A model generated the notes under the pieces. That model saw only the letters and a list, made by a program, of their open reading frames with translations. It ran no database searches and was not told the origin of the DNA. Below are positions 5,910-43,405 of a stretch of DNA of 64,000 nucleotides, piece by piece. The stretch lies in assembly GCF_029531655.1 (NCBI RefSeq), contig NZ_JANRMI010000002.1:744001-808000 (forward strand), read 5' to 3'. Position 1 is the first letter of the stretch; each line of letters opens with the position of its first letter. Origin of the DNA: Bdellovibrio svalbardensis. Lineage in GTDB: Bacteria; Bdellovibrionota; Bdellovibrionia; Bdellovibrionales; Bdellovibrionaceae. The position numbers were made by a program, and so were the translations under genes.

Positions 5910-5922
5910 TGTTTTTAAGGGG

Positions 5923-6032
5923 CGCGGATGCGCACAGAGTGGAAGGCCGCAGGGCCTGGGAACTGAAGTAACTCCCGAAGTGAGCTGGTGAGTCCTGCAG
6001 GGAATCGCTGGTCGCGAATTTCGGGTGAATTA
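5923..6032 (+). repeat. Family C hairpin-rich repeat, copy C1
   Basis: It contains GCGCACAGAGTGGAAGGCC, GGCCGCAGGGCC and GAACTGAAGTAACTCC. Related strings occur near 24050 (minus), 26620 (plus), 32870-33005 (minus, in virB4) and 37230 (plus, in virB10). Several short GC-rich stems can form. It sits between the promoter and the first gene of the operon, so it would be transcribed. Confidence 0.65.
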
Positions 6033-7374: not shown

Positions 7375-7986
7375 ATGAGTTTGCCAGTGGAACCGTTCCG
7401 CTGCTTTGAACTTCTCATCGAACATGCGAAGAAGACGGAAATGCCTGCGGCTTTCCGTTTAGAAGTCATTCGACAACTTGAATACTTTAAAGCGCAATCG
7501 CTTTGTGATCTGGATCGAAGAGATCCGCCACTTACCTTGCGTGAAAACTGGCGCATCGTAAAAGGGCAGACTAGGGGCTTGAAATTTCTAGAGAGCTATA
7601 AAGCCGATGAGCATTTCTGGCGAATCGTGCAGGCCTTTGTTTATGAGGTTGAACCTTGTTCGGTCATTATTCCTCGCCCTGAGAAGCCGCCGAGACCTGC
7701 TTCTAAGTGCGATAACTGGAAGCCTTTTGATTTCTTTAATCATCTGATCAATCAGCTGGATTCTAGAGTGCAGTTCTCGGAAGAGGAAAAGTATATGATT
7801 CTTCATGGGTTGTATTTTCTTCGAGCGGAATCGGAGAGGGCGCCGGGATTGCGAGATGAGGTGAGGATGCGGCAGGTTTGGGCGCGCGTTCACAGATACT
7901 TGGAGCGCGTGGGGTTGATGGCGGAATTTAAGGAAGAGGAGAAGCTTAAATCTGCCATCAGATACTTCATTGACCGCGCTCTTTAG
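7375..7986 (+). CDS. Hypothetical protein, last gene of nitrilase operon
   Basis: 203 aa from the ATG at 7375; an upstream in-frame TTG at 7330 would nearly touch the nitrilase stop, so the start is uncertain. It is a soluble helical protein, charged, with a Pro-rich linker (VIIPRPEKPPRPASK) dividing two helical halves; the second half ends KEEEKLKSAIRYFIDRAL. No recognised domain. The stop codon is directly followed by repeat A2. Its position suggests it belongs with the nitrilase and the two small proteins. Confidence 0.6.
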   Translation: MSLPVEPFRCFELLIEHAKKTEMPAAFRLEVIRQLEYFKAQSLCDLDRRDPPLTLRENWRIVKGQTRGLKFLESYKADEHFWRIVQAFVYEVEPCSVIIPRPEKPPRPASKCDNWKPFDFFNHLINQLDSRVQFSEEEKYMILHGLYFLRAESERAPGLRDEVRMRQVWARVHRYLERVGLMAEFKEEEKLKSAIRYFIDRAL

Positions 7987-7988
7987 GT

Positions 7989-8113
7989 GGGGTGATGAAA
8001 AGCAGCCATCTGCTGCGTTGAAGAACCTTCTCCTTCACTTTGACGTACTACTTGTACGCCTGCGATCAGTCGAAGAACCTCCGCCTTGCATCTGTCTACT
8101 TTTGATCATCCTC
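7989..8113 (+). repeat. Family A palindromic repeat, copy A2
   Basis: It starts 2 bases after the stop of the upstream gene. Arms GGGGTGATGAAAAG and CTTTTGATCATCC; centre GACGTACTACTTGTACGCC. The GATGAAAAG...CTTTTGATC frame is as in the other copies. No B element follows here. Confidence 0.9.
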
Positions 8114-10652: not shown

Positions 10653-10775
10653 GGTTGATCAAAAGTAGGGAAGATTAAGGCGGAGGTTCGAGGTCACGAC
10701 TGAGGCGTATGTGTCTATACGTCGTGGGAGTGGACTCGTGCTGACAACGAAGAGGTTACCTGCTTTTCATCAACC
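10653..10775 (-). repeat. Family A palindromic repeat, copy A3 (reverse)
   Basis: Outer arms GGTTGATCAAAAGTAG and TGCTTTTCATCAACC; centre GGCGTATGTGTCTATACGTC. It begins 11 bases after the stop of the forward gene ending at 10642, in the opposite orientation to that gene. Confidence 0.9.
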
Positions 10776-10780
10776 GAAAA

Positions 10781-10817
10781 AGGGGACTGGTTAAAGGAGA
10801 ATAAAACCAGCCCCCTC
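10781..10817 (-). terminator. Rho-independent terminator
   Basis: Read on the minus strand: stem AGGGGGCTGGTT with AACCAGTCCCCT, followed by TTTTT. It would end transcripts coming from the 11034-11687 gene through repeat A4. Confidence 0.6.
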
Positions 10818-11858: not shown

Positions 11859-11980
11859 GGATGGTGAAAAGGGCTCATTTGCTTCGTTGTCGGCTCGAGT
11901 CCTCTCCCGCAACGTACTACTCGTACGCCTTGGTCGTGAACTCAAAACTCCGCCTCGCACCTGAATCCTTTTGATCATCC
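11859..11980 (+). repeat. Family A palindromic repeat, copy A5
   Basis: Arms GGATGGTGAAAAGGG and TCCTTTTGATCATCC; centre AACGTACTACTCGTACGCC. The inner block CTTCGTTGTCGGCTCGAG matches the family. Followed by B2. Confidence 0.9.
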
Positions 11981-12009
11981 TGGGGAATGTGCAGTGATAA
12001 ATACAGCTC

Positions 12010-12118
12010 ATCGTAAACTCCGAAAAGGTTTGAGGGCACGGCCAAGCCTGTGTGGTCGAACCCGCTCTACATAAGAACATATTCAAGGCATTGAGTATGA
12101 TCTTATCGCCAAACATGA
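12010..12118 (+). repeat. Family B element, copy B2, with downstream promoter-like box
   Basis: It begins ATCGTAAAC, has TCGAACCCGCTCTACATAAG, a hairpin, then TTATCGCCAAACATG. Just downstream is TAGACAATCCTTTATTTAC, identical to the sequence following B3, and then TATAAT. B plus this box probably drives the gene at 12223. Confidence 0.75.
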
Positions 12119-12222
12119 TTTCCCCGTTCTGTAGTCCGAGGTAGACAATCCTTTATTTACAACACAATATAATCTTAAATGAGTTTCGCCAAAGGATTTT
12201 GAGCTAGTCACGGGATTTCTGA

Positions 12223-13235: not shown

Positions 13236-13358
13236 CGGGAGCTGATAAAGCTCCATCTGCTTCGTTGTCGAGAACCTTCCTTCACTGCGACCTACTGACC
13301 AGTAGGCCTCGCTTCGAAAGAACCTCTCCGCCTCTCATCTGAAGCTTTCTTAGCCCCC
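13236..13358 (+). repeat. Family A palindromic repeat, copy A6 (diverged)
   Basis: It starts 5 bases after the HTH gene stop. Outer arms are changed (GGGAGCTGATAAAGCT / AGCTTTCTTAGCCCC) but still pair. The inner CATCTGCTTCGTTGTCGAG block and the centre CCTACTGACCAGTAGG fit the family. The arm changes are partly compensatory. Confidence 0.8.
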
Positions 13359-19608: not shown

Positions 19609-20850
19609 ATGGCTCTTAAAGTTTTTATTCTTGTTATTTCTATTTTGTTTGTGGCTTGTTCGGAGGAGCTTAGTAAAAGGGCTGAAGAGGCTAAGGCTCT
19701 GGAGAGTTTGCCGCCTAAGGTGACTATTCAGAGTTCGGCTTTGGCTGAGGCTGTGAAGGTGGTGATCACGGGGGCTGATCCGGAAAAGTATACGGTGCAG
19801 TTTTCTTGGCCTCATCTTGAGAAGGATAAAATACTTCGTATTCGCCTTGGAACCGTCCTACAGGAAATTCTTTCAAGCCAAACATTCTTTACTCATACGG
19901 TGGGGCACAATCAGATTCTCAATTATTCCTTCGATATTTTAGATTCCAATCGGAAGCCGGAAATGACATTCCGAAAGACGGTCATTATTCCTTATGACTT
20001 TGTTGTTCGCGAGGGTACTGGCGTACTTTTATATAATACAAAGATTGAAGCTAATCGCGTCTTCTTAAGCGATAAAATTCCACTCACCACCAACGGCACA
20101 ACCTTAGATATTGCCGCCAATGAACTTCATGCTGCCAATGGCAGCATCCAAACTTTCCCTGAAAGTATTAAAATCAAAAACTCTCAAGGGTTTGAAGAGG
20201 AACTTCCTCCAACAGCGCCTGATGGGGTGAATGGAAGATCTGGCGGGGCTATTTCAATTAGTGCAAAGAAACTCTACGGCAGATTGCATGTCTACATGCG
20301 CGGAGAAAAGGGCGGACGAGGACTTAAAGGTGATCCCAAGCCGCAGGCCTCGGCTGGCGTTCCAGCAGAAAGTGCGAAGCCTGAGTGTTTGAAGGACTCG
20401 CCCGTTAGATTTTCACTCTCTCAATGCTCTTGCCCAAGTGATCTAAGACCCGGAGGTCAGGGCGCTGACGGTGAAAAAGGGAATCCCGGAAGGCAAGGAA
20501 TGAGTGGCGGAGATTCCGGAAGTGTCCGAATCATGATCCAAGAGTACATCCCGAGCGAGGGGATTGACTCGATTTTACCGACAGATGGCGTTGGCATTGT
20601 CGATGTTGTTCAATTGCCGGGCGTGGGTGGAGATGGTGGTTTCGGTGGTGATGGGCAGGCCGGCGGCGCAGGAGGGCCTGGCCGTAACATCGCCGGGAGG
20701 TTGGAGTGTAGGGGGGATGGGGGAATGTCAGGCAAGGATGGACCTGTGGGCGATGCTGGAGGGGCGGGTCACCCGGGGGTGCTCGGCATGAAATGCGTCT
20801 ATATTGGTTCAGAGAACCAAAACGACTGCTCGCAGGGTGACGGGCGATGA
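19609..20850 (+). CDS. Glycine-rich, collagen-like surface lipoprotein
   Basis: 413 aa. Lipobox LFVACS (Cys about residue 17). The first 200 residues are beta-rich and end in a Gly-rich sheet-like part (GAISISAKKLYGRLHVYMRG). From about residue 230 there are collagen-like Gly-x-y runs (GEKGGRGLKGDP; GQGADGEKGNPGRQGMSG; GGDGGFGGDGQAGGAGGPG; GKDGPVGDAGGAGHPG). Cys residues near the end may cross-link. Likely exposed on the cell surface. The stop codon TGA is itself part of the GATGAAAAG start of repeat A7. Confidence 0.8.
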   Translation: MALKVFILVISILFVACSEELSKRAEEAKALESLPPKVTIQSSALAEAVKVVITGADPEKYTVQFSWPHLEKDKILRIRLGTVLQEILSSQTFFTHTVGHNQILNYSFDILDSNRKPEMTFRKTVIIPYDFVVREGTGVLLYNTKIEANRVFLSDKIPLTTNGTTLDIAANELHAANGSIQTFPESIKIKNSQGFEEELPPTAPDGVNGRSGGAISISAKKLYGRLHVYMRGEKGGRGLKGDPKPQASAGVPAESAKPECLKDSPVRFSLSQCSCPSDLRPGGQGADGEKGNPGRQGMSGGDSGSVRIMIQEYIPSEGIDSILPTDGVGIVDVVQLPGVGGDGGFGGDGQAGGAGGPGRNIAGRLECRGDGGMSGKDGPVGDAGGAGHPGVLGMKCVYIGSENQNDCSQGDGR

Positions 20851-20963
20851 AAAGGATCCATCTTCTTCGTTGGCAGAACCTGTCTTTCTCTCCAACGTAC
20901 TATTCGTACGCCTTCGTGGCAGACAGAACCCGCCGCCTTGAATCTGAATCCTTTTGATCACCC
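20842..20963 (+). repeat. Family A palindromic repeat, copy A7
   Basis: It overlaps the last codons of the collagen-like gene; CGATGAAAAGGATCC supplies the stop TGA. Right arm GAATCCTTTTGATCACCC; centre AACGTACTATTCGTACGCC. Followed by B4. Confidence 0.9.
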
Positions 20964-21084
20964 ATGATTTTTGAAACTAGCAGAAAGAAACAGTATTGAA
21001 CCCATTTTATCAAGCCAGGACTCGGGTAGTGAAGGTCGAATCTCTTAAGATTTTGATCAACCCCGGGCACGGGCAGAGTGAAAC

Positions 21085-21212
21085 TCAAGTAAATCCTCAA
21101 ACATCGGAAAACTCCTCGTTTGAGTGGATCGTAGTGCATCCACGAACCCGTGCTTCATATGCGCTTTCTCGCGGAGTGAGGAAGAGTATATCGCCAACCG
21201 CTTTTCCCAAGT
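21085..21212 (+). repeat. Family B element, copy B4
   Basis: Contains CACGAACCCGTGCTTCATATG, the GCGGAGTGAGGAAGAG segment also found in B5, and ATATCGCCAACCG. The 5' part has a CAAACATCGG...CGTTTGAG stem. It precedes the membrane-protein gene at 21301. Confidence 0.75.
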
Positions 21213-21300
21213 GTTGGGTCTAAGAGTATTTGGGTGCAGTTTTGGGTGTTAAGGGTATTTCCTTGGTGACCGAGCCTTGTTCGAAATTTATATTTGAGAA

Positions 21301-23842: not shown

Positions 23843-23878
23843 TAAAGGCGCTGAATAGATTGTTCAGTGCCTTTTTCT
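23843..23878 (+). terminator. Rho-independent terminator of cassette type 1
   Basis: AAAGGCGCTGAATAGATTGT with TCAGTGCCTTTTTC; third copy of the hairpin. Confidence 0.85.
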
Positions 23879-23971
23879 TTTTGTGGGTCCGATGCAATGA
23901 TGGATTTTCCGGACGTCTTTCTCTTTCAATTCTTATCTGTCGCTGGAATACAATTCGCTACTCCCAATTTT

Positions 23972-24589
23972 ATGGAAAGTTTTAAAATTGGCTTATATCC
24001 CTCATTAGTTATCCCAAGGTTGATAAAAAGAGCACGGACGGCTGGCGGAGTTACTTCAGCTTTCAAGCCTCCGGCTTTGCAGCACTGTTCGCGATTTACG
24101 GTAGTTACTTCAGTTTTCGCACGAGGAACCGCTGCTGCAACACTGTGCCTTGCGGCCGGTTGTGCGACGACGACTTCTGGCAAGGTCTATCAGAATATGG
24201 TGCTCGGGGGGGCGGCTGGAGTTGCTTATGGGTCGTCGCAGTCTGACTATAAAGGAACACAAGCTGCTTTGTATGGATCGCTAGGGGCGGCTATTGCGGC
24301 GGCTACTACGATCTATTTTGAAGATCCCGATAAGACTGAAATCAAACTCCGAAATGAAGTGAATACTCTGAAAGCTAAGCTTGATCACATTAGTGAGCCG
24401 AAGCTTGTGGGATCAGTGCCGGCCACCTTCGGCGCGAGAATTCCGGTAAAGTATCGTCAGCTTGTTCAACCCGGAGAGTGGAAAGTCTATGAAACAGATA
24501 CTTGGGTAGAGGAGTCCGAAAACAGACTTATTCATCAAGATAAAATTATGGAACTAATACCCCCGGTTTTGATACCAGGAGGAACGTAA
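23972..24589 (+). CDS. Lipoprotein next to the T4SS locus
   Basis: 205 aa from the ATG at 23972; the true start is uncertain because a family C repeat covers the N-terminus. Lipobox LCLAAGC, then VLGGAAGVAYGSSQS and LYGSLGAAIAAATTIYF (glycine-zipper helices), a coiled region, and ARIPVKYRQLVQPGEWKVYE. A lipidated glycine-zipper protein upstream of virB2 could play a VirB7/TraV-like role, but there is no firm match. The signal region appears partly rebuilt from repeat DNA. Confidence 0.55.
   Translation: MESFKIGLYPSLVIPRLIKRARTAGGVTSAFKPPALQHCSRFTVVTSVFARGTAAATLCLAAGCATTTSGKVYQNMVLGGAAGVAYGSSQSDYKGTQAALYGSLGAAIAAATTIYFEDPDKTEIKLRNEVNTLKAKLDHISEPKLVGSVPATFGARIPVKYRQLVQPGEWKVYETDTWVEESENRLIHQDKIMELIPPVLIPGGT
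24047..24130 (-). repeat. Family C repeat, copy C2, inside a lipoprotein N-terminus
   Basis: On the minus strand it reads AAAGCCGGAGGCTTGAAAGC then TGAAGTAACTCC, matching C1 and C3. The TTACTTCAG string occurs twice here, at both ends of the segment. It encodes part of the leader of the 23972-24589 lipoprotein. Confidence 0.65.
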
Positions 24590-26271: not shown

Positions 26272-26559
26272 ATGAAGCTATCCTTGTGTCTTATAATAGG
26301 AATTATTTGTTTGATCTTTGTTGAACCTGTGCTTGCTCGGGATCTTGTGGATGCGGCGGCTTCGGCGCAGGCGTCGTTTACGCGCATTGGGATTGCGGCG
26401 ATTAGTATCGGCATCACTATCGGAGGAATTTTATTCGCCATAGGAATGGGGATGTGGGGACGCCTTGTTTTGGTGAGTGGGTTTATTGGGGCATTGGCTA
26501 TATTAGGTGGGCCAGCAGCGATTTCACTAGTAGCAAGATTCTTCGGCGTCGGCTTGTGA
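26272..26559 (+). CDS. virB2: VirB2/TrbC-like T4SS pilin subunit
   Basis: 95 aa. A signal-like helix (LCLIIGIICLIFVEPVLA) is followed by the mature pilin with two TM helices (AAISIGITIGGILFAIG; GRLVLVSGFIGALAILG) and a Gly-Ala-rich end. This size and layout fit VirB2/TrbC major pilins. It is separated from virB3 by about 4.3 kb of cargo genes and repeats, whereas in intact systems they are adjacent. Stop followed directly by repeat A8. Confidence 0.8.
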   Translation: MKLSLCLIIGIICLIFVEPVLARDLVDAAASAQASFTRIGIAAISIGITIGGILFAIGMGMWGRLVLVSGFIGALAILGGPAAISLVARFFGVGL

Positions 26560-26754
26560 GGTCGATGAAAAGCGGTCGTCTCCTTTGTTGTCAGCACTCC
26601 GACTGTCCTCGACGGGCCGGACGGCCACAGAGTGGAAAGCCGGAGGCTTGCAACTGAAGTAGCTGGTTCAACTACGTTCTCCTCGGCTCCCGCCGCAATA
26701 CGCCTGCGGGAATCGGAGCGCCTCCGCCGCGGATACAACCGCTTTTGATCAACC
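26560..26754 (+). repeat. Family A repeat, copy A8, with nested family C insert
   Basis: It starts next to the virB2 stop (GGTCGATGAAAAGCGG) and ends CCGCTTTTGATCAACC. The loop is interrupted: between CTCGACG and AATACGCC lies about 80 bp of family C (GCCACAGAGTGGAAAGCC; GCAACTGAAGTAGCTGG), at about 26609-26690. About 30 bp further on is an extra right-arm end, GGGCTTTTGATCATCC (26785-26800). Confidence 0.85.
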
Positions 26755-26835
26755 TGCGTAAATAAGGGCAGGAGAAAATAAAGGGCTTTTGATCATCCTC
26801 GGGTATTTGTGGGAAAGAATAAAATAAACCTATAG

Positions 26836-26943
26836 TAAAAAATCCGGAAAGGTCTGAGGACGCGTCGAAGACTGTGGACGAACCCGAGTTTCATGTCCTT
26901 TTATTCGCGGAGTGAGGAAGAGGGCATCGCCAACAGTTTTGTC
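26836..26943 (+). repeat. Family B element, copy B5
   Basis: Starts CTATAGTAAAAAATCC, then GGTCTGAGGACGCG, GACGAACCCGAGTTTCATG, GCGGAGTGAGGAAGAG and GCATCGCCAACAGTTTT. Followed by promoter-like box P1. Confidence 0.75.
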
Positions 26944-26958
26944 CTCGTTGTCATGTTG

Positions 26959-26998
26959 TCAGTACGTTTATGAGCATTTAGGGTTCTAAAAGCATTAC
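26959..26998 (+). promoter_or_regulatory. Promoter-like box P1
   Basis: CAGTACGTTTATGAGCATTT then GGGTTCTAAAAGCATTA. The same box recurs at 27555 (P2), 28878 (P3), 29585 (P4) and 43366 (P5); four of the five lie 35-80 bp upstream of a forward gene start. Confidence 0.55.
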
Positions 26999-27034
26999 TT
27001 TGTTGCTCGCGCGAAAGAATTTTGTGAAACTTAA

Positions 27035-30790: not shown

Positions 30791-30908
30791 ATGAAAGTAC
30801 ATAGTGCAAGGTTCTTAACGATCGGCGTAGCAGGATGCTACCCCGAAGTGACAACCCGAAGGGGAGAGGGCAGGAGCCCGATCCAGCTAAAGCGAGTTGA
30901 GGTGGCGT
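30791..30908 (+). repeat. Insertion that duplicated the start of virB3
   Basis: The first copy of the virB3 start (ATGAAAGTACATAGTGCAAG, at 30791, behind GGAGG) is followed by about 90 bp of hairpin-rich DNA (GTAGCAGGATGCTAC; CCCGAAGTGACAACCCG) and then a second start (ATGAAGGTGCATAGTGCACG) at 30909. The first ATG opens a 43 aa ORF ending at 30922 inside the second start. Confidence 0.75.
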
Positions 30909-31298
30909 ATGAAGGTGCATAGTGCACGCCTCCTCAACGAGCGAACCGGCTGGTTCGGCCTTTCAGTTTTGGATTTAGCGATTGTAGGTTATTCGCTCAT
31001 TTTTTCCGATTCGATTCTTCGACCATTTGGTTTTGAGCTTGGGGCCTTTCTGATTGCGGGGGGCGTCTTTCTAGTTCTGTTGAATATTCGTCTTCGAAGT
31101 CGTCCGAAAACTATTAGGGACTTTCTGCGATTTAAGTTTTCTCCTTCACTTCTAAATCCCCAGATTGATCAAAAGGTGGCGGGTGCGCGGCGCAGGGCTT
31201 TTTCCGAAACGGAGTCGTATGTACAAATACGTCAAAGTGAAGGAGAAAGCCCTGCAACAAAGCAGACGCCATCTTTTCATCACACGAGCACTCGATGA
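30909..31298 (+). CDS. virB3: VirB3-like inner-membrane T4SS protein, with repeat-encoded C-terminus
   Basis: 129 aa from the ATG at 30909 (GAGGTGG upstream). Two adjacent hydrophobic helices (VLDLAIVGYSLIFSDSIL; AFLIAGGVFLVLLNIRL) and a short cytoplasmic part give the VirB3/TrbD layout just upstream of virB4. From about residue 86 the frame runs into repeat A9 (antisense), giving a tail of about 45 residues made of repeat (AGARRRAFSETESYVQI). The stop overlaps the virB4 ATG. Normal VirB3 lacks such a tail. Confidence 0.75.
   Translation: MKVHSARLLNERTGWFGLSVLDLAIVGYSLIFSDSILRPFGFELGAFLIAGGVFLVLLNIRLRSRPKTIRDFLRFKFSPSLLNPQIDQKVAGARRRAFSETESYVQIRQSEGESPATKQTPSFHHTSTR
31162..31283 (-). repeat. 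Family A repeat, copy A9, inside virB3
   Basis: On the minus strand TGATGAAAAGATGGCG...CGCCACCTTTTGATCAATC; centre GACGTATTTGTACATACG. It lies within the open frame of virB3 and is translated in antisense. Confidence 0.9.
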
Positions 31299-33589
31299 TT
31301 CCAATTCTATCGGAGATAAAAACTTATAAAGAGCTCATCATTTGGAAAACAACTGATGGAATCATCGGGTGCGGCTTCGATCTGGTCAGTTGTGATCCCG
31401 AGTTGGATGATGTTGCTTCATTTCAAAAGAGGTTGAATCAGGCGCTAAGGCAGCTCGATCCAAGTATCGTTTGTCGATTGGAGCTGTCGTCGGAGGAGTC
31501 CTATGATTTGGATAAAGCTTATCCGAGGGCGCTGGCTTTGAATGAGTTGGGTTTTGTTCGAAATCGATTGCGCCTTTATTTGGATGTGGTTCCTGGGTTT
31601 CGGCTTTTTAGGAAAAGCCGGGGGATGGACCCGTTTGAGGTTTTGCATGCGGCCTATTTGAATCTCAAAGGCTTTGGTATCGAGGCGGTAGGCCTCAGCA
31701 AGAATGAAATCGTTACGCTGTTTGATCGCGGGTCCAGTGATTGGGTGCTGTCCGGTCGGTCTATCGAAACGGGAACGGAAAGTATCGGCGTGGTCCGGCT
31801 AAAGAAACAGCCGGATTCTGAATTCGATTGGGCCGATTTCATGGAAGTCGTTGAAGAGTTGCCAAGGCCTTTTAGCTTAAGCACTTCGTTTGCTAGACTG
31901 TCGGAGGCGTCAGCCAAGATCTTGCTTGAGAAGAAGCTCAAGCAGCTTGAGGGGGCGAAAGATGTGGGTTCAAGCGTTCAGCGCGAAAGCGCTTTGCTTG
32001 CGTTGAAGGAAAACTTTAAGTCTGGGGTGCAGTTCTTTGAAATGGAAGTCCTAGTTACTTTAAAAAGACCTAGCCCTGAAACTTTAAGTGCTTCTTTAAG
32101 AGAAGCTCAATCAACATTGTCGCTCTTCTCCGAAGCTCAGATTGAAACTTTCGGGGTTCTGCCGAGCTTTGTAGCTTCGCTTCCCGGGAGTCGGCAACAC
32201 GTAGTTCTCGTGGAGAATGAGGCAGCACTTCTCAATCAGTTGCCGATGTATTCATGTTCTACTTTAAGTTCAGTAAACCCAGCGAGATCGCTTAGTTTGC
32301 TTCGGTCGAACAACTCACTCTTCCATTTTGATCTATTTGATCCTCAGTTCAATGCATTTAATTCAATTATCGTTGGACCTAGTGGTCGGGGGAAGTCGGT
32401 CTTGGCGGGGATGCTTTCGACGGCTTTACTTAACGACAATAATGTCCATGTCATCAAAATCGACGTGGGTGGTTCGCACTCAAAAGAGTGCGAACTTCTC
32501 GGAGGACAAGAGTTTTCATTGAGTTTAGATAAGAGCTCCGGATTGAACCCTCTCTCGGTGATCGCGTTACATAATCGCGCGTCAGCGAGCAGTGTTGGAG
32601 GGGCGGTAGTCACGGAAACTGAAGCAGCATCCGACAACGACAAGTTGGCCATCGTATCCAAATTCCTCATGGTCTTGATTCAAGAGCAGGGGGAGGTCAC
32701 TTTAAGTAAAGACCTTCGATCTCAAGTTGAGGAGTGCGTAAGGGCTTATATTGATTTAAAACCCGAAGCTCCGTGTCTTCAGGATTTCTACGACAAGATA
32801 TCTAATTTCCCGCGCCGAAATCTTTTAAGGCGCTGGGTACGTGGTGGACTCTATGAGAGGGCGTTCGCCGCGGATGCGGGGAGAATGAACGACCACCGGG
32901 AGGGAATTGAACCAGCGGAGTTGCTTCAGTTTCGCGCCGACGGCGCTTCGCTCTGCTCCCATCCGGGCCTTCAGCTTCCGACCTCTGGAACTCCACACTG
33001 CGCGCGTTTGCGGTATTTTAACTTCTCTCAAGTATTTCAGGCAAGTGACCCGGAGTTCGCGGTCGCGGGCTTTGCCGCACTTTTAGCGGAACTCAATTCT
33101 CAAGTCTTGATTCAAGACGAAAGAAGAATAGTTCTAATGCTCGATGAAGTTCCATTCTTTATTAAGTATTGCTTTGAGCTGATTAAGTTTACGGCGGCTA
33201 ATATGCGGAAATATGGCCATGCGGTGGTTTGTATCTCGCAATTGCTGGGGGATCTTATCGTAAATGGAGATAGAGGGATTATTGAAAACAGCCCACAGCG
33301 TTTTCTATTCGCCGTAGATGGCGACACGAAGGAGTTTCAGGAGGCAACCGGGTTGCAGGAGCACCACATGGATGTGGTGAACGGACTTCAGAGTATTCCT
33401 GGCGTTAAATCCGAAGTATTTTTCAAGACTGATGCGGGAGGAGTGAAGTTGGTGAGCAAGATCACTCGACAGGAGTATTGGGAAAAAACCTCATCGAAAA
33501 CCGATAAGGAGAAAATGGCACAGCTTTTAAGGGCGGTGCCGGGGTTGACGATGAGGGAGGCGATCTACTGTCTTTCTATAGAAAAGTAA
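31295..33589 (+). CDS. virB4: VirB4-like T4SS ATPase with an inserted repeat
   Basis: 764 aa. The N-terminal VirB4 domain is followed by Walker A at IIVGPSGRGKSVLAGML (about residue 355) and Walker B at RRIVLMLDEVPFFI (about 610). TraC/VirB4 proteins power pilus assembly and substrate transfer at the inner membrane. Between them, at about residues 520-570, a family C repeat (minus) is read through in frame (RAFAADAGRMNDHREGIEP; FRADGASLCSHPG), just before the family's YFNFSQ-like strand. Start overlaps the virB3 stop (ATGA). Confidence 0.9.
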   Translation: MIPILSEIKTYKELIIWKTTDGIIGCGFDLVSCDPELDDVASFQKRLNQALRQLDPSIVCRLELSSEESYDLDKAYPRALALNELGFVRNRLRLYLDVVPGFRLFRKSRGMDPFEVLHAAYLNLKGFGIEAVGLSKNEIVTLFDRGSSDWVLSGRSIETGTESIGVVRLKKQPDSEFDWADFMEVVEELPRPFSLSTSFARLSEASAKILLEKKLKQLEGAKDVGSSVQRESALLALKENFKSGVQFFEMEVLVTLKRPSPETLSASLREAQSTLSLFSEAQIETFGVLPSFVASLPGSRQHVVLVENEAALLNQLPMYSCSTLSSVNPARSLSLLRSNNSLFHFDLFDPQFNAFNSIIVGPSGRGKSVLAGMLSTALLNDNNVHVIKIDVGGSHSKECELLGGQEFSLSLDKSSGLNPLSVIALHNRASASSVGGAVVTETEAASDNDKLAIVSKFLMVLIQEQGEVTLSKDLRSQVEECVRAYIDLKPEAPCLQDFYDKISNFPRRNLLRRWVRGGLYERAFAADAGRMNDHREGIEPAELLQFRADGASLCSHPGLQLPTSGTPHCARLRYFNFSQVFQASDPEFAVAGFAALLAELNSQVLIQDERRIVLMLDEVPFFIKYCFELIKFTAANMRKYGHAVVCISQLLGDLIVNGDRGIIENSPQRFLFAVDGDTKEFQEATGLQEHHMDVVNGLQSIPGVKSEVFFKTDAGGVKLVSKITRQEYWEKTSSKTDKEKMAQLLRAVPGLTMREAIYCLSIEK
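32850..33005 (-). repeat. Family C repeat, copy C4, in frame within virB4
   Basis: On the minus strand it contains GCGCGCAGTGTGGAGTTCC, GGCGCGAAACTGAAGCAACT and CGGTGGTCG-type ends, parallel to C1. Its stem CGCCGACGGCG is internal. About 50 residues of VirB4 come from it. Confidence 0.7.
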
Positions 33590-36565: not shown

Positions 36566-37169
36566 CGCTTATAAAATGACTGGGGCTTTTGTTGCTCGGT
36601 CGAGCCGCTTGTGCGAAATACTCTTAGTATTCCTCCGCGCAACTCTCCCTCGCGTCGCGGCCTCAGCCATTTTCTTGCTCGCTATGGGATTGGGGAATGA
36701 TTCAAGCGCAGGACAAAAAGAAATCAAAAGAATTTCATCTATCAGCAAGGATTTAAGTCAGGTGAAGAAGATCTATCTTCATGCAGGTTTGGTGAGCACG
36801 GTGGAGTTTAAGCAAGCGGTCATTGGAGTGAAGGTGGGGAATACTGATAGCATTAAGGCAGAAATATCACCAAGTAATCCTAAAGAAGTGACGTTGAGGC
36901 TTAAACATCAGAATGCAGAGCCGACCAATATGATCGTAAGAGTCGATAGACACGTCTATGTGTTCGACTTAATTCCGAGTAAAACGAGCCACCAGGACTA
37001 CGTCCTGATCAGGGGTAGTTTTGGATTTCCACAATCCGAAACTGCCAAGGAACGTTCCAAGATAAGCGCGGGACTGAATGCCAGCGAAGCGCACGACAGA
37101 GGAGTTATAATTCAGTCCCGCGCTCCGAAATCAAAATTAATAGAATCAGTAAAATTAGGAGACGAATAA
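36531..37169 (+). CDS. virB9: VirB9/TrbG-like T4SS outer-membrane-complex protein, altered
   Basis: 212 aa from the ATG at 36531, overlapping virB8 by 35 bases; an ATG at 36573 would start closer to the signal peptide VAASAIFLLAMGLGNDSSAG. The VirB9 N-terminal beta domain is clear (SISKDLSQVKKIYLHAGLVS; KAEISPSNPKEVTLRLKH; EPTNMIVRVDRHVYVFDL). The C-terminal part is short and crosses a hairpin insert (37068-37125). The signal-peptide region also lies on a diverged A-like palindrome (centre GAAATACTCTTAGTATTC). Confidence 0.75.
   Translation: MKWMNCQMRLSSAYKMTGAFVARSSRLCEILLVFLRATLPRVAASAIFLLAMGLGNDSSAGQKEIKRISSISKDLSQVKKIYLHAGLVSTVEFKQAVIGVKVGNTDSIKAEISPSNPKEVTLRLKHQNAEPTNMIVRVDRHVYVFDLIPSKTSHQDYVLIRGSFGFPQSETAKERSKISAGLNASEAHDRGVIIQSRAPKSKLIESVKLGDE
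37068..37125 (+). repeat. Inverted repeat in the 3' end of virB9
   Basis: GCGGGACTGAAT and ATTCAGTCCCGC, a perfect 12 bp inverted repeat about 34 bp apart, within the coding frame. Related in style to family C. Confidence 0.75.
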
Positions 37170-37945
37170 TGGGTATCATAATTTTTCTGATTTCAATTTC
37201 CTTTGCTCGAGAGAGTTTATTTCGCGCTACACCGCGCACAGAGGTGAGTGTGCCATCAGCACGCGGAAATGAAGTAGCTCAAAAGCCAGTACCGAAGCAG
37301 CCACCGCGAAAGGCAGTATCTACTTCGGTGAGAGGTAATTTAGATAAGGAGATCCTTGTGATCTCCAAATATAAAGTAGAAGACTCTGCCGAAATCACCC
37401 CCAAAGAGCGAGTAGGCCTGAAATTTAAGGGCCTAAGAGTAGGCGAGGTGCTAAGCGCTGAGATCACGGAAGAAGTGACAGTCTATCCAGACAGCAAGAC
37501 GCCCGTCAGAGCTACGGTTTCGAGTGGCAAACTCAAAGGCGCCATCCTAGTAGGCGAAGCGACCTTGGAGAAAAACTCTAAAAAAGTTCTTATCAACTTT
37601 AAACAAATCCGCCAAAACAAGGGCGAAGACCTCTATCAACTCGCCGGGTATTCGCTCATAGAAGGCGAATATCACAGCAATGAAAAGAAATTCTTCATAG
37701 CAGAATTCTTAAGTGCGGCAGCTGCAGGTATCGCCGATGCCAGTATCAACAGGTCGCAAAATGTCTTGGGCAATTATGTGGAAGAGCCGAGCTTAGATAC
37801 CACAGGGAAGAAGGCGTTGGGGGCGGCACTTAATAAGAGTGCCGAACGGTTGGCGGAGAAGCAACGAAGTGCGCCGGAGTTTACGGTGGTTGGTGAGGTG
37901 ACGGGGATCTCAATCCTAATCACCGACCAACCAAGCACTCTTTGA
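37169..37945 (+). CDS. virB10: VirB10/TrbI-like T4SS protein, shortened N-terminus
   Basis: 258 aa, ATG with AGGAG upstream. The C-terminal TrbI/VirB10 domain is recognisable (KFKGLRVGEVLSAEITEEVT; VRATVSSGKLKGAILVGEAT; KVLINFKQIRQ). It is shorter than usual VirB10 proteins (often 350-450), and the N-terminal region has a weak TM (GIIIFLISISFARESLF) followed by a segment over family C-like DNA (GTEVSVPSARG-type). The stop is immediately followed by repeat A10. Function: spans inner and outer membranes in the T4SS core. Confidence 0.8.
   Translation: MGIIIFLISISFARESLFRATPRTEVSVPSARGNEVAQKPVPKQPPRKAVSTSVRGNLDKEILVISKYKVEDSAEITPKERVGLKFKGLRVGEVLSAEITEEVTVYPDSKTPVRATVSSGKLKGAILVGEATLEKNSKKVLINFKQIRQNKGEDLYQLAGYSLIEGEYHSNEKKFFIAEFLSAAAAGIADASINRSQNVLGNYVEEPSLDTTGKKALGAALNKSAERLAEKQRSAPEFTVVGEVTGISILITDQPSTL
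37215..37290 (+). repeat. Family C-like repeat, copy C5, in virB10
   Basis: GCGCACAGAGGTGAGTGTG then GGAAATGAAGTAGCTC, matching the order of C1 (GCGCACAGAGTGG ... GAACTGAAGTAACTC). Read in frame in VirB10. Confidence 0.6.
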
Positions 37946-38066
37946 GGTCGATGAAAATGGGTCATCTGCTTTGTTGTCGGCGCTTCGGCTATCCTCGACG
38001 TATTATCAAATACGCCTCTGGGAACCAAAGCACCTCCGCCGCGCACCTAACCTATTTTGATCAACC
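37945..38066 (+). repeat. Family A repeat, copy A10
   Basis: It begins at the virB10 stop (GGTCGATGAAAATGG); ends CCTATTTTGATCAACC. Centre GACGTATTATCAAATACGCC. The outer-arm change G to T (AAAAT / ATTTT) is compensated on both sides. Confidence 0.9.
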
Positions 38067-41578: not shown

Positions 41579-41803
41579 CTACTTCAGCTTGCAAGCCTTT
41601 GGCTCTTTAGGACTGTCGCCGCGGGCGTTTCTGCAGGTGCGGTTGGAGTAGTCCCAGCAGCCGCCGTTGTCTTGGCAGCGGTCGATGAGATAGTAGTCGC
41701 GGCTAAATCCGTGGCTTGCGAAAATAAATAACTCATGACCAACTAGCGGTACTGATACTAAAGTAATAATCCCAGCAATACCGATAAATATCTTGTTTCT
41801 CAT
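41579..41803 (-). CDS. Small Cys-rich anchored protein
   Basis: 74 aa. N-terminal TM anchor (KIFIGIAGIITLVSVPLVGH), then an external region with CQDNGGCWDYSNRTCRNAR and a final Cys. Six-residue-scale spacing of the Cys suggests a tight disulfide knot. Similar in style to the 8162-8428 protein. Last island gene before the tRNA remnant. Confidence 0.55.
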   Translation of the reverse strand: MRNKIFIGIAGIITLVSVPLVGHELFIFASHGFSRDYYLIDRCQDNGGCWDYSNRTCRNARGDSPKEPKACKLK

Positions 41804-43254: not shown

Positions 43255-43353
43255 CTACGAAGGGGCTAAGGTAGGAACCTGAGATAGCCCGCGCTACATA
43301 TACCCTACCTCATGGAATGGGGAAGGGGATATCGGCACCAGTTTTTTCCCTGG
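43255..43353 (+). repeat. Family B element, copy B7
   Basis: GCCCGCGCTACATATACCC, hairpin CCCTACCTCAT...ATGGGGAAGGGG, then ATATCGGCACCAG. Diverged but in the same order as the other copies. Confidence 0.6.
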
Positions 43354-43365
43354 TGTTAAGTTTGC

Positions 43366-43405
43366 CAGCACGTTTGTAGACGTTGTTGGGATTAAAAGCA
43401 TTAGA
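43366..43405 (+). promoter_or_regulatory. Promoter-like box P5
   Basis: CAGCACGTTTGTAGACGTTG then GGGATTAAAAGCATTAG, about 40 bp before the start at 43445, again directly after a B element. Confidence 0.5.

Follow-up and report, generated by a model that had tools for sequence, protein, structure and literature searches.

The VirB4 ATPase of a type IV secretion system (T4SS) in Bdellovibrio svalbardensis has very probably been invaded at two sites by a small repeat whose units form two hairpins and whose copies are scattered over the genus; this invasion is the best explanation for the findings as a whole. The window, that is, the whole stretch of DNA analysed, comprises 64,000 nucleotides (C2:744001-808000). 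The original prediction had placed one in-frame, repeat-derived insertion in this conserved ATPase, at 32850-33005 between Walker A and Walker B. Repeat origin, reading frame, host and position relative to the two motifs were all confirmed. The insertion itself stands with corrected bounds (32868-33013, three units), and it is not the only one: a second site, at residues 427-443 (unit 32577-32625), had been overlooked.

The host open reading frame (ORF) matches P-loop_TraG in Pfam (E 5e-14), and the top PDB match of its AlphaFold2 model is TrwK/VirB4 of R388 (8rtd; Foldseek E 1e-29). A phmmer search against PDB chains gave nothing significant, whereas the fold search did match. Homologues were found in 72 of the 147 genomes searched, its own genome counted. 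An alignment (A5) of 20 sequences, the query and 19 homologues, was drawn from 21 homologues after exclusion of the truncated L029 and L032. Residues G361, G364, G366, K367 and S368 are invariant in A5, as are D617 and E618; these are taken to be Walker A and Walker B respectively. Both the fold and the Walker motifs are those of a VirB4 ATPase. The adjoining genes gave weak VirB8, CagX/VirB9 and TrbI/VirB10 matches in Pfam, all under cut-off, and a pattern search of the genome contig collection returned 23 matches, none of them VirB4 relatives. The start of virB4 is overlapped by ORF 30897-31298, most of the last third of which is a copy (31165-31282) of a longer palindromic repeat, so that a second repeat family may contribute coding sequence there.

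The repeat unit is 46 nt long in four copies outside virB4 (alignment A2) and 46-49 nt across the family; its parts, in order, are ACTTCAGTT, a hairpin (5 bp, 3-nt loop), TCCACTCTGT and a second hairpin of 4 bp. Two covariance models were used: R1 was built from A2, and R2 from A4, which holds 41 strong copies from other genomes, with own-genome sequences excluded. The family is real, and both of its hairpins are kept by covariation. In A4, 98.4% of 365 cells are paired and all nine pairs have changed on both sides. Alignment of A4 to the model biases it towards the structure, a bias guarded against by slid and shuffled controls, in which slid pairing reached 35-52% and none of 500 shuffles was as good. 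In its own genome, blastn recovered the query alone at E ≤ 0.001 and only fragments at E ≤ 10; the family is therefore undetectable from sequence alone and needs structure models. No Rfam family matched in the window at gathering thresholds. The suggestion that the repeat is open in all frames, and so pre-adapted for reading, was rejected by low antisense openness: of 128 copies, 92-96% have open sense frames (82% of shuffles) and 39-55% have open antisense frames (73% of shuffles).

The VirB4 inserts coincide with repeat units and are missing from nearly all homologues. The only residues with a counterpart in no more than 20% of the 19 homologues are 427-443 (site 1) and 529-531, 536-547 and 558-570 (site 2), and both sites fall between the two Walker motifs. 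Over 410-465 the query spans 56 residues and the homologues 35-39; over 505-585 it spans 81 and they span 44-64. Since the homologues do without the insert residues, the insert is not a segment that repeat-free homologues share. The site 1 insert of 17 amino acids is coincident with its unit (Table 1), and the repeat-derived segment at site 2 covers residues 525-573 and holds one certain and two degenerate units, one reversed and two direct. With filters off, the four best R2 matches inside virB4 all land on the two insert sites. Mean pLDDT of the AlphaFold2 model is 85, and residues 102-109, 428-441 and 528-567 are the only ones under 50; the insert residues thus occupy loops that are predicted to be disordered.

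By score, only the unit at 32923-32968 is certain. It forms the 5-bp hairpin with the 3-nt loop, followed by a second hairpin with three of four pairs, and was recovered both by R1 (genome E 9e-9) and by R2 (E 5e-11 over 3.9 Mb), a model built only from other genomes. R2 gave an E of 0.004 within the gene for the abutting unit and of 0.0004 within the gene for the site 1 unit. The reversed unit at 32868-32913 has the frame of other reversed intragenic copies, and its peptide starts with AADAG. As two of the three site 2 units are degenerate, it is mainly their position that speaks for them, and the three remaining VirB4 units (7-16 bits) would not stand without their coincidence with the insert sites. 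Folded as RNA, the whole insert did not exceed shuffled sequences in strength (z -0.81 for one strand, +1.41 for the other), so that one long hairpin across it is unsupported; the folding signal resides in the unit hairpins.

Table 1. The virB4 gene and copies of the two-hairpin repeat in the window (positions in the window)
Feature	Position	Strand	Evidence
virB4, type IV secretion system, host of the inserts	31295-33589	+	764 aa; Pfam, Foldseek, homologues
Site 1, degenerate reversed unit, residues 428-444	32577-32625	-	R2 14.6 bits
Site 2 unit 0, degenerate, reversed	32868-32913	-	R1 16.2, R2 7.3 bits
Site 2 unit 1, certain copy	32923-32968	+	R1 43.4, R2 48.5 bits
Site 2 unit 2, degenerate, abuts unit 1	32969-33013	+	R1 11.5, R2 11.4 bits
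Intergenic copy	5922-5969	-	R2 52.9 bits
Degenerate copy in ORF 23867-24589 (putative coding)	24053-24094	+	R1 20.6 bits
Possible degenerate copy beside 24053-24094	24107-24157	+	R1 9.5 bits, E 0.59, weak
Copy within a copy of the longer palindromic repeat (26545-26754)	26615-26660	-	R2 57.0 bits
Degenerate unit near start of virB10/TrbI-like gene 37169-37945, in frame	37224-37275	-	R1 19.9, R2 17.4 bits
Possible degenerate copy, intergenic	41581-41627	+	R1 15.9 bits, weak

Elsewhere in the window, the possible copy at 41581-41627 had no R2 match at E ≤ 0.05. The gene that holds the unit at 37224-37275 has a TrbI match under the Pfam cut-off, and this unit may be extragenic if the true start codon lies further in. 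In the whole genome, R1 matched 14 places at E ≤ 10, the best 11 of which all lie within C2:732809-785627; few copies occur beyond this one stretch of ~53 kb, as judged with R2 from the 150 of 931 first-look candidates that were scored. Eight of the nine best R2 matches among these fall in C2:732809-781275, together with T4SS genes, and the ninth is on contig C4. The family may have arrived with a mobile region. Among 147 relatives, R2 was positive at E ≤ 0.001 in 21, namely 19 of the 24 genomes of the genus (its own among them) plus two from other genera of the same family, and R1 at E ≤ 0.1 likewise gave matches in 19 of the 24 genomes of the genus. A strict sequence pattern matched a single contig, of Bdellovibrio sp., in the contig collection.

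Placement was surveyed for 128 copies of at least 30 bits in other genomes, relative to ORFs of at least 100 aa defined without a gene caller. These copies represent 86 of 94 and 42 of 61 listed rows; rows below 30 bits, from its own genome or repeating a place already represented were left out. The majority of copies are intergenic, and many of these follow a stop codon directly and with a constant orientation; a minority lie in frame in genes. An automatic rule classed 10 copies as intragenic candidates and 118 as others. Among the 122 copies that remain when six intragenic ones are subtracted, the reversed element starts no more than 2 nt past the stop codon of an opposite-strand gene in 61; the same-strand count is one of 122. 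Of the candidates, L144, L202, L193, L140 and L141 were accepted, L177, L081 and L083, which are only 5-7 codons away from the end of an ORF, were set aside, and L191 and L195 are outside the accepted set. Inspection, rather than the automatic rule, added L106/L145 (ScpB N-terminus), L146 (C-terminus), a second copy in L193 (26.1 bits), L178 (25.1 bits) and L216 (26.5 bits). In a hand-made list of intragenic copies, all eight reversed ones, including two from VirB4 and one from the VirB10-like gene, are read in one frame; of the seven direct ones, six are read in a second frame.

The in-frame copies occur in unrelated proteins. The E2 component of a 2-oxoacid dehydrogenase in genome G006 has two (residues 99-115 and 169-185), located between its lipoyl (4-76), E3-binding (121-155) and catalytic (189-417) domains, and the E2 of G020 has one at 77-93. 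Others are found in a thioredoxin/TPR protein (116-132), a TPR protein (446-461), ScpB (19-35) and a FlgJ-like protein (148-164), the last touching the start of an M23 match at 158. The in-frame copies in the N-terminal part of ScpB (L106/L145) and in the thioredoxin/TPR protein (L141, G020) are from another genome of the genus. For E2, 22 of 23 full orthologues were aligned, with G004 and the G010 fragment left out. In linker 1 the copy is direct in G006 and G016, partial in G002 and reversed in G020, and G023 lacks one; in linker 2, G006 and G002 have the copy and G016 and G023 do not. In every orthologue the linkers vary and are rich in Ala and Pro, and in most their length differs little, so the change resembles replacement as much as clean insertion. 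Since the genus includes genomes that have a copy at a given linker and genomes that lack it there, both the neutrality of the insertions and their route of entry are directly testable.

Candidate units also turned up in VirB4 of other lineages. When 18 homologue loci, 79,322 bases in all, were searched with R2 unfiltered, six matches reached E ≤ 5, and two of these exceed 8 bits. These two, L020 (14.0 bits) and L018 (8.2 bits), represent two other genera, and both lie in the site 2 loop of their own VirB4. The best R2 match in virB4 of G005 (7.0 bits, E 0.068) also maps to this loop by coordinate arithmetic. These matches suggest that the loop was hit, or a unit kept, in more than one lineage; those of L018 and L020 may go back to one shared event.

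The same search bears on the reading of the VirB4 segment as a hypervariable loop of the ordinary kind, lengthened by slippage or small duplications and similar to the repeat by chance. The homologues do vary in length in the aligned region (44-64 residues), and blastn found no second copy at E ≤ 0.001. Against this, the certain unit scores 48.5 bits (E 5e-11) with a model blind to its own genome, the remaining units coincide with both insert sites, and the background of 79,322 bases reaches at most 14.0 bits, with its top two matches in this very loop. Chance likeness is very unlikely for the unit at 32923-32968, and growth of an ordinary loop is an extremely improbable account of the segment as a whole. 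The proposal that the family is a GTAG- or CGTC-type repetitive extragenic palindrome (REP) moved by a Y1 (RAYT) transposase was considered unlikely. Such REPs share its habits according to the part of the literature considered, being short palindromes that are intergenic, near stop codons, grouped and in some cases intragenic (PMC3733652), and Y1_Tnp genes are present in 21 of the 24 genomes of the genus. However, GTAG or CTAC stands at the ends of only 35 of 128 copies and CGTC/GACG of three, so that most members are without an unpaired end motif of this type. None of the eight Y1_Tnp loci searched (L119-L126) carries a copy, which leaves these loci without a flanking or linked repeat, and copy number does not follow Y1 number over the 24 genomes (rho -0.10, p 0.65). 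A RAYT mover is thus not supported.

The family might instead be primarily a functional mRNA element, the hairpin pair behind stop codons shielding or processing 3' ends in operons and the intragenic copies being by-products. This reading is compatible with invasion of VirB4 by repeat units and is considered possible, if less likely than not. The strict pairing and the fixed orientation just past the stop codon (61 against one of 122) speak for it. Five of the 24 genomes of the genus, however, have no copies at E ≤ 0.001, which argues against an essential role, and tandem, nested and reversed copies look selfish. It is possible that the intergenic copies act at mRNA 3' ends.

Under the preferred explanation, invasion of VirB4 by units of a dispersed repeat, the element would be non-autonomous and REP-like and would spread as a single-stranded hairpin, either as DNA or as an RNA copy. 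Neither a target duplication nor an empty/filled pair at single-base resolution was found for its movement, and base profiles of the flanks of the 128 copies revealed no clear target consensus. Within genes, only insertions whose overall length preserves the reading frame and whose peptide becomes flexible would survive; the surviving peptide would be a linker or loop, mostly rich in Ala, Pro, Gly and Glu. The VirB4 loop near residue 525 appears to be such a tolerant site, probably hit repeatedly. For VirB4 the consequence is most likely neutral, a longer loop with ATPase function kept. A bolder version would make the repeat a mobile, stop-codon-targeting hairpin that is inserted one way behind coding sequences, builds portable disordered linkers in genes, has colonised the same VirB4 loop independently in several genera, and has been repeatedly gained and lost in enzymes like E2; taken together, these claims are possible yet rather doubtful. 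In any case, the one-way orientation anchored at stop codons is a rule that every model of the element must meet.

The behaviour foreseen from Rickettsia palindromic elements (RPEs) was borne out, as other genes of the genus also have in-frame copies; the likeness does not extend to sequence or structure. RPEs are palindromic, inserted in frame in unrelated genes and tolerated by the host protein (PMC10969869), and in-frame insertion in unrelated protein genes is likewise seen here, in VirB4, E2, thioredoxin/TPR, ScpB, FlgJ-like and TPR proteins. According to the portion of that paper considered, RPEs are ~150 bp long and nearly half lie within genes (PMC10969869). The units described here, in contrast, are 46-49 nt long, form two separate short hairpins instead of a single palindrome of ~100-150 nt, differ in sequence and are mostly intergenic, which sets them apart from RPE families by description. 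The intragenic habit thus holds for an in-frame minority of a family that lives mainly between genes, beside stop codons. From Rickettsia, an operon is described that has a palindromic element along with a T4SS gene; in the passages considered the element is not inside VirB4 (PMC2653234). Nor is the parallel unique, because intragenic in-frame REPs have been described in several phyla, with linkers or loops as the proposed site (PMC3733652, in part).

In the broad sense the family is a REP, that is, a short repeated stem-loop that is intergenic and near gene 3' ends. It shares short hairpins, grouping and some in-frame copies with the GTAG and CGTC types, but has no conserved tag, two hairpins per unit and one orientation to the upstream stop codon. 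In the GTAG super-family, by comparison, the terminal motif is conserved in more than 90% of members (PMC3733652, in part). Bdellovibrio is absent from the main text of that paper. MITEs and ERIC-type repeats are also small, non-autonomous and able to give in-frame fusions (PMC10969869, in part); the present unit is shorter than the 70-300 bp of MITEs, and neither terminal inverted repeats nor target duplications were shown for it. In open-licence papers no description of this repeat in Bdellovibrio was found. Novelty appears to lie in the family as such, with two hairpins per unit and without a GTAG/CGTC tag, in the genus that hosts it, in the single orientation it takes behind stop codons and in the probable reuse of one VirB4 loop, whereas in-frame palindromic insertions, including those outside Rickettsia, are already known (PMC3733652, in part). 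A predatory lineage thereby joins the cases in which short palindromic repeats turn into protein; one loop of a secretion motor and the linkers of an enzyme of central metabolism were probably hit repeatedly.

The window also contains a second repeat family, a longer imperfect palindrome of ~105-135 nt on both strands, with copies at 668-804, 7979-8111, 10653-10787, 11859-11980, 13237-13341, 20841-20963, 31165-31282 and 37943-38066. The stretch at 26545-26754 is nested, a copy of this longer family being split by a stretch that contains the two-hairpin unit 26615-26660, the flanks of which match 668-738 and 747-804. Near-identical direct repeats (28761-28919/29470-29627, 21925-22102/22603-22780 and 14140-14231/16313-16404) surround small ORFs and look like cassette-style duplications; the first pair contains a terminator-like hairpin. 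A third repeat family of ~115-230 nt is present at 11968-12128, 21051-21275, 26787-27012, 26883-26997 and 43288-43403 and sometimes adjoins the longer palindrome.
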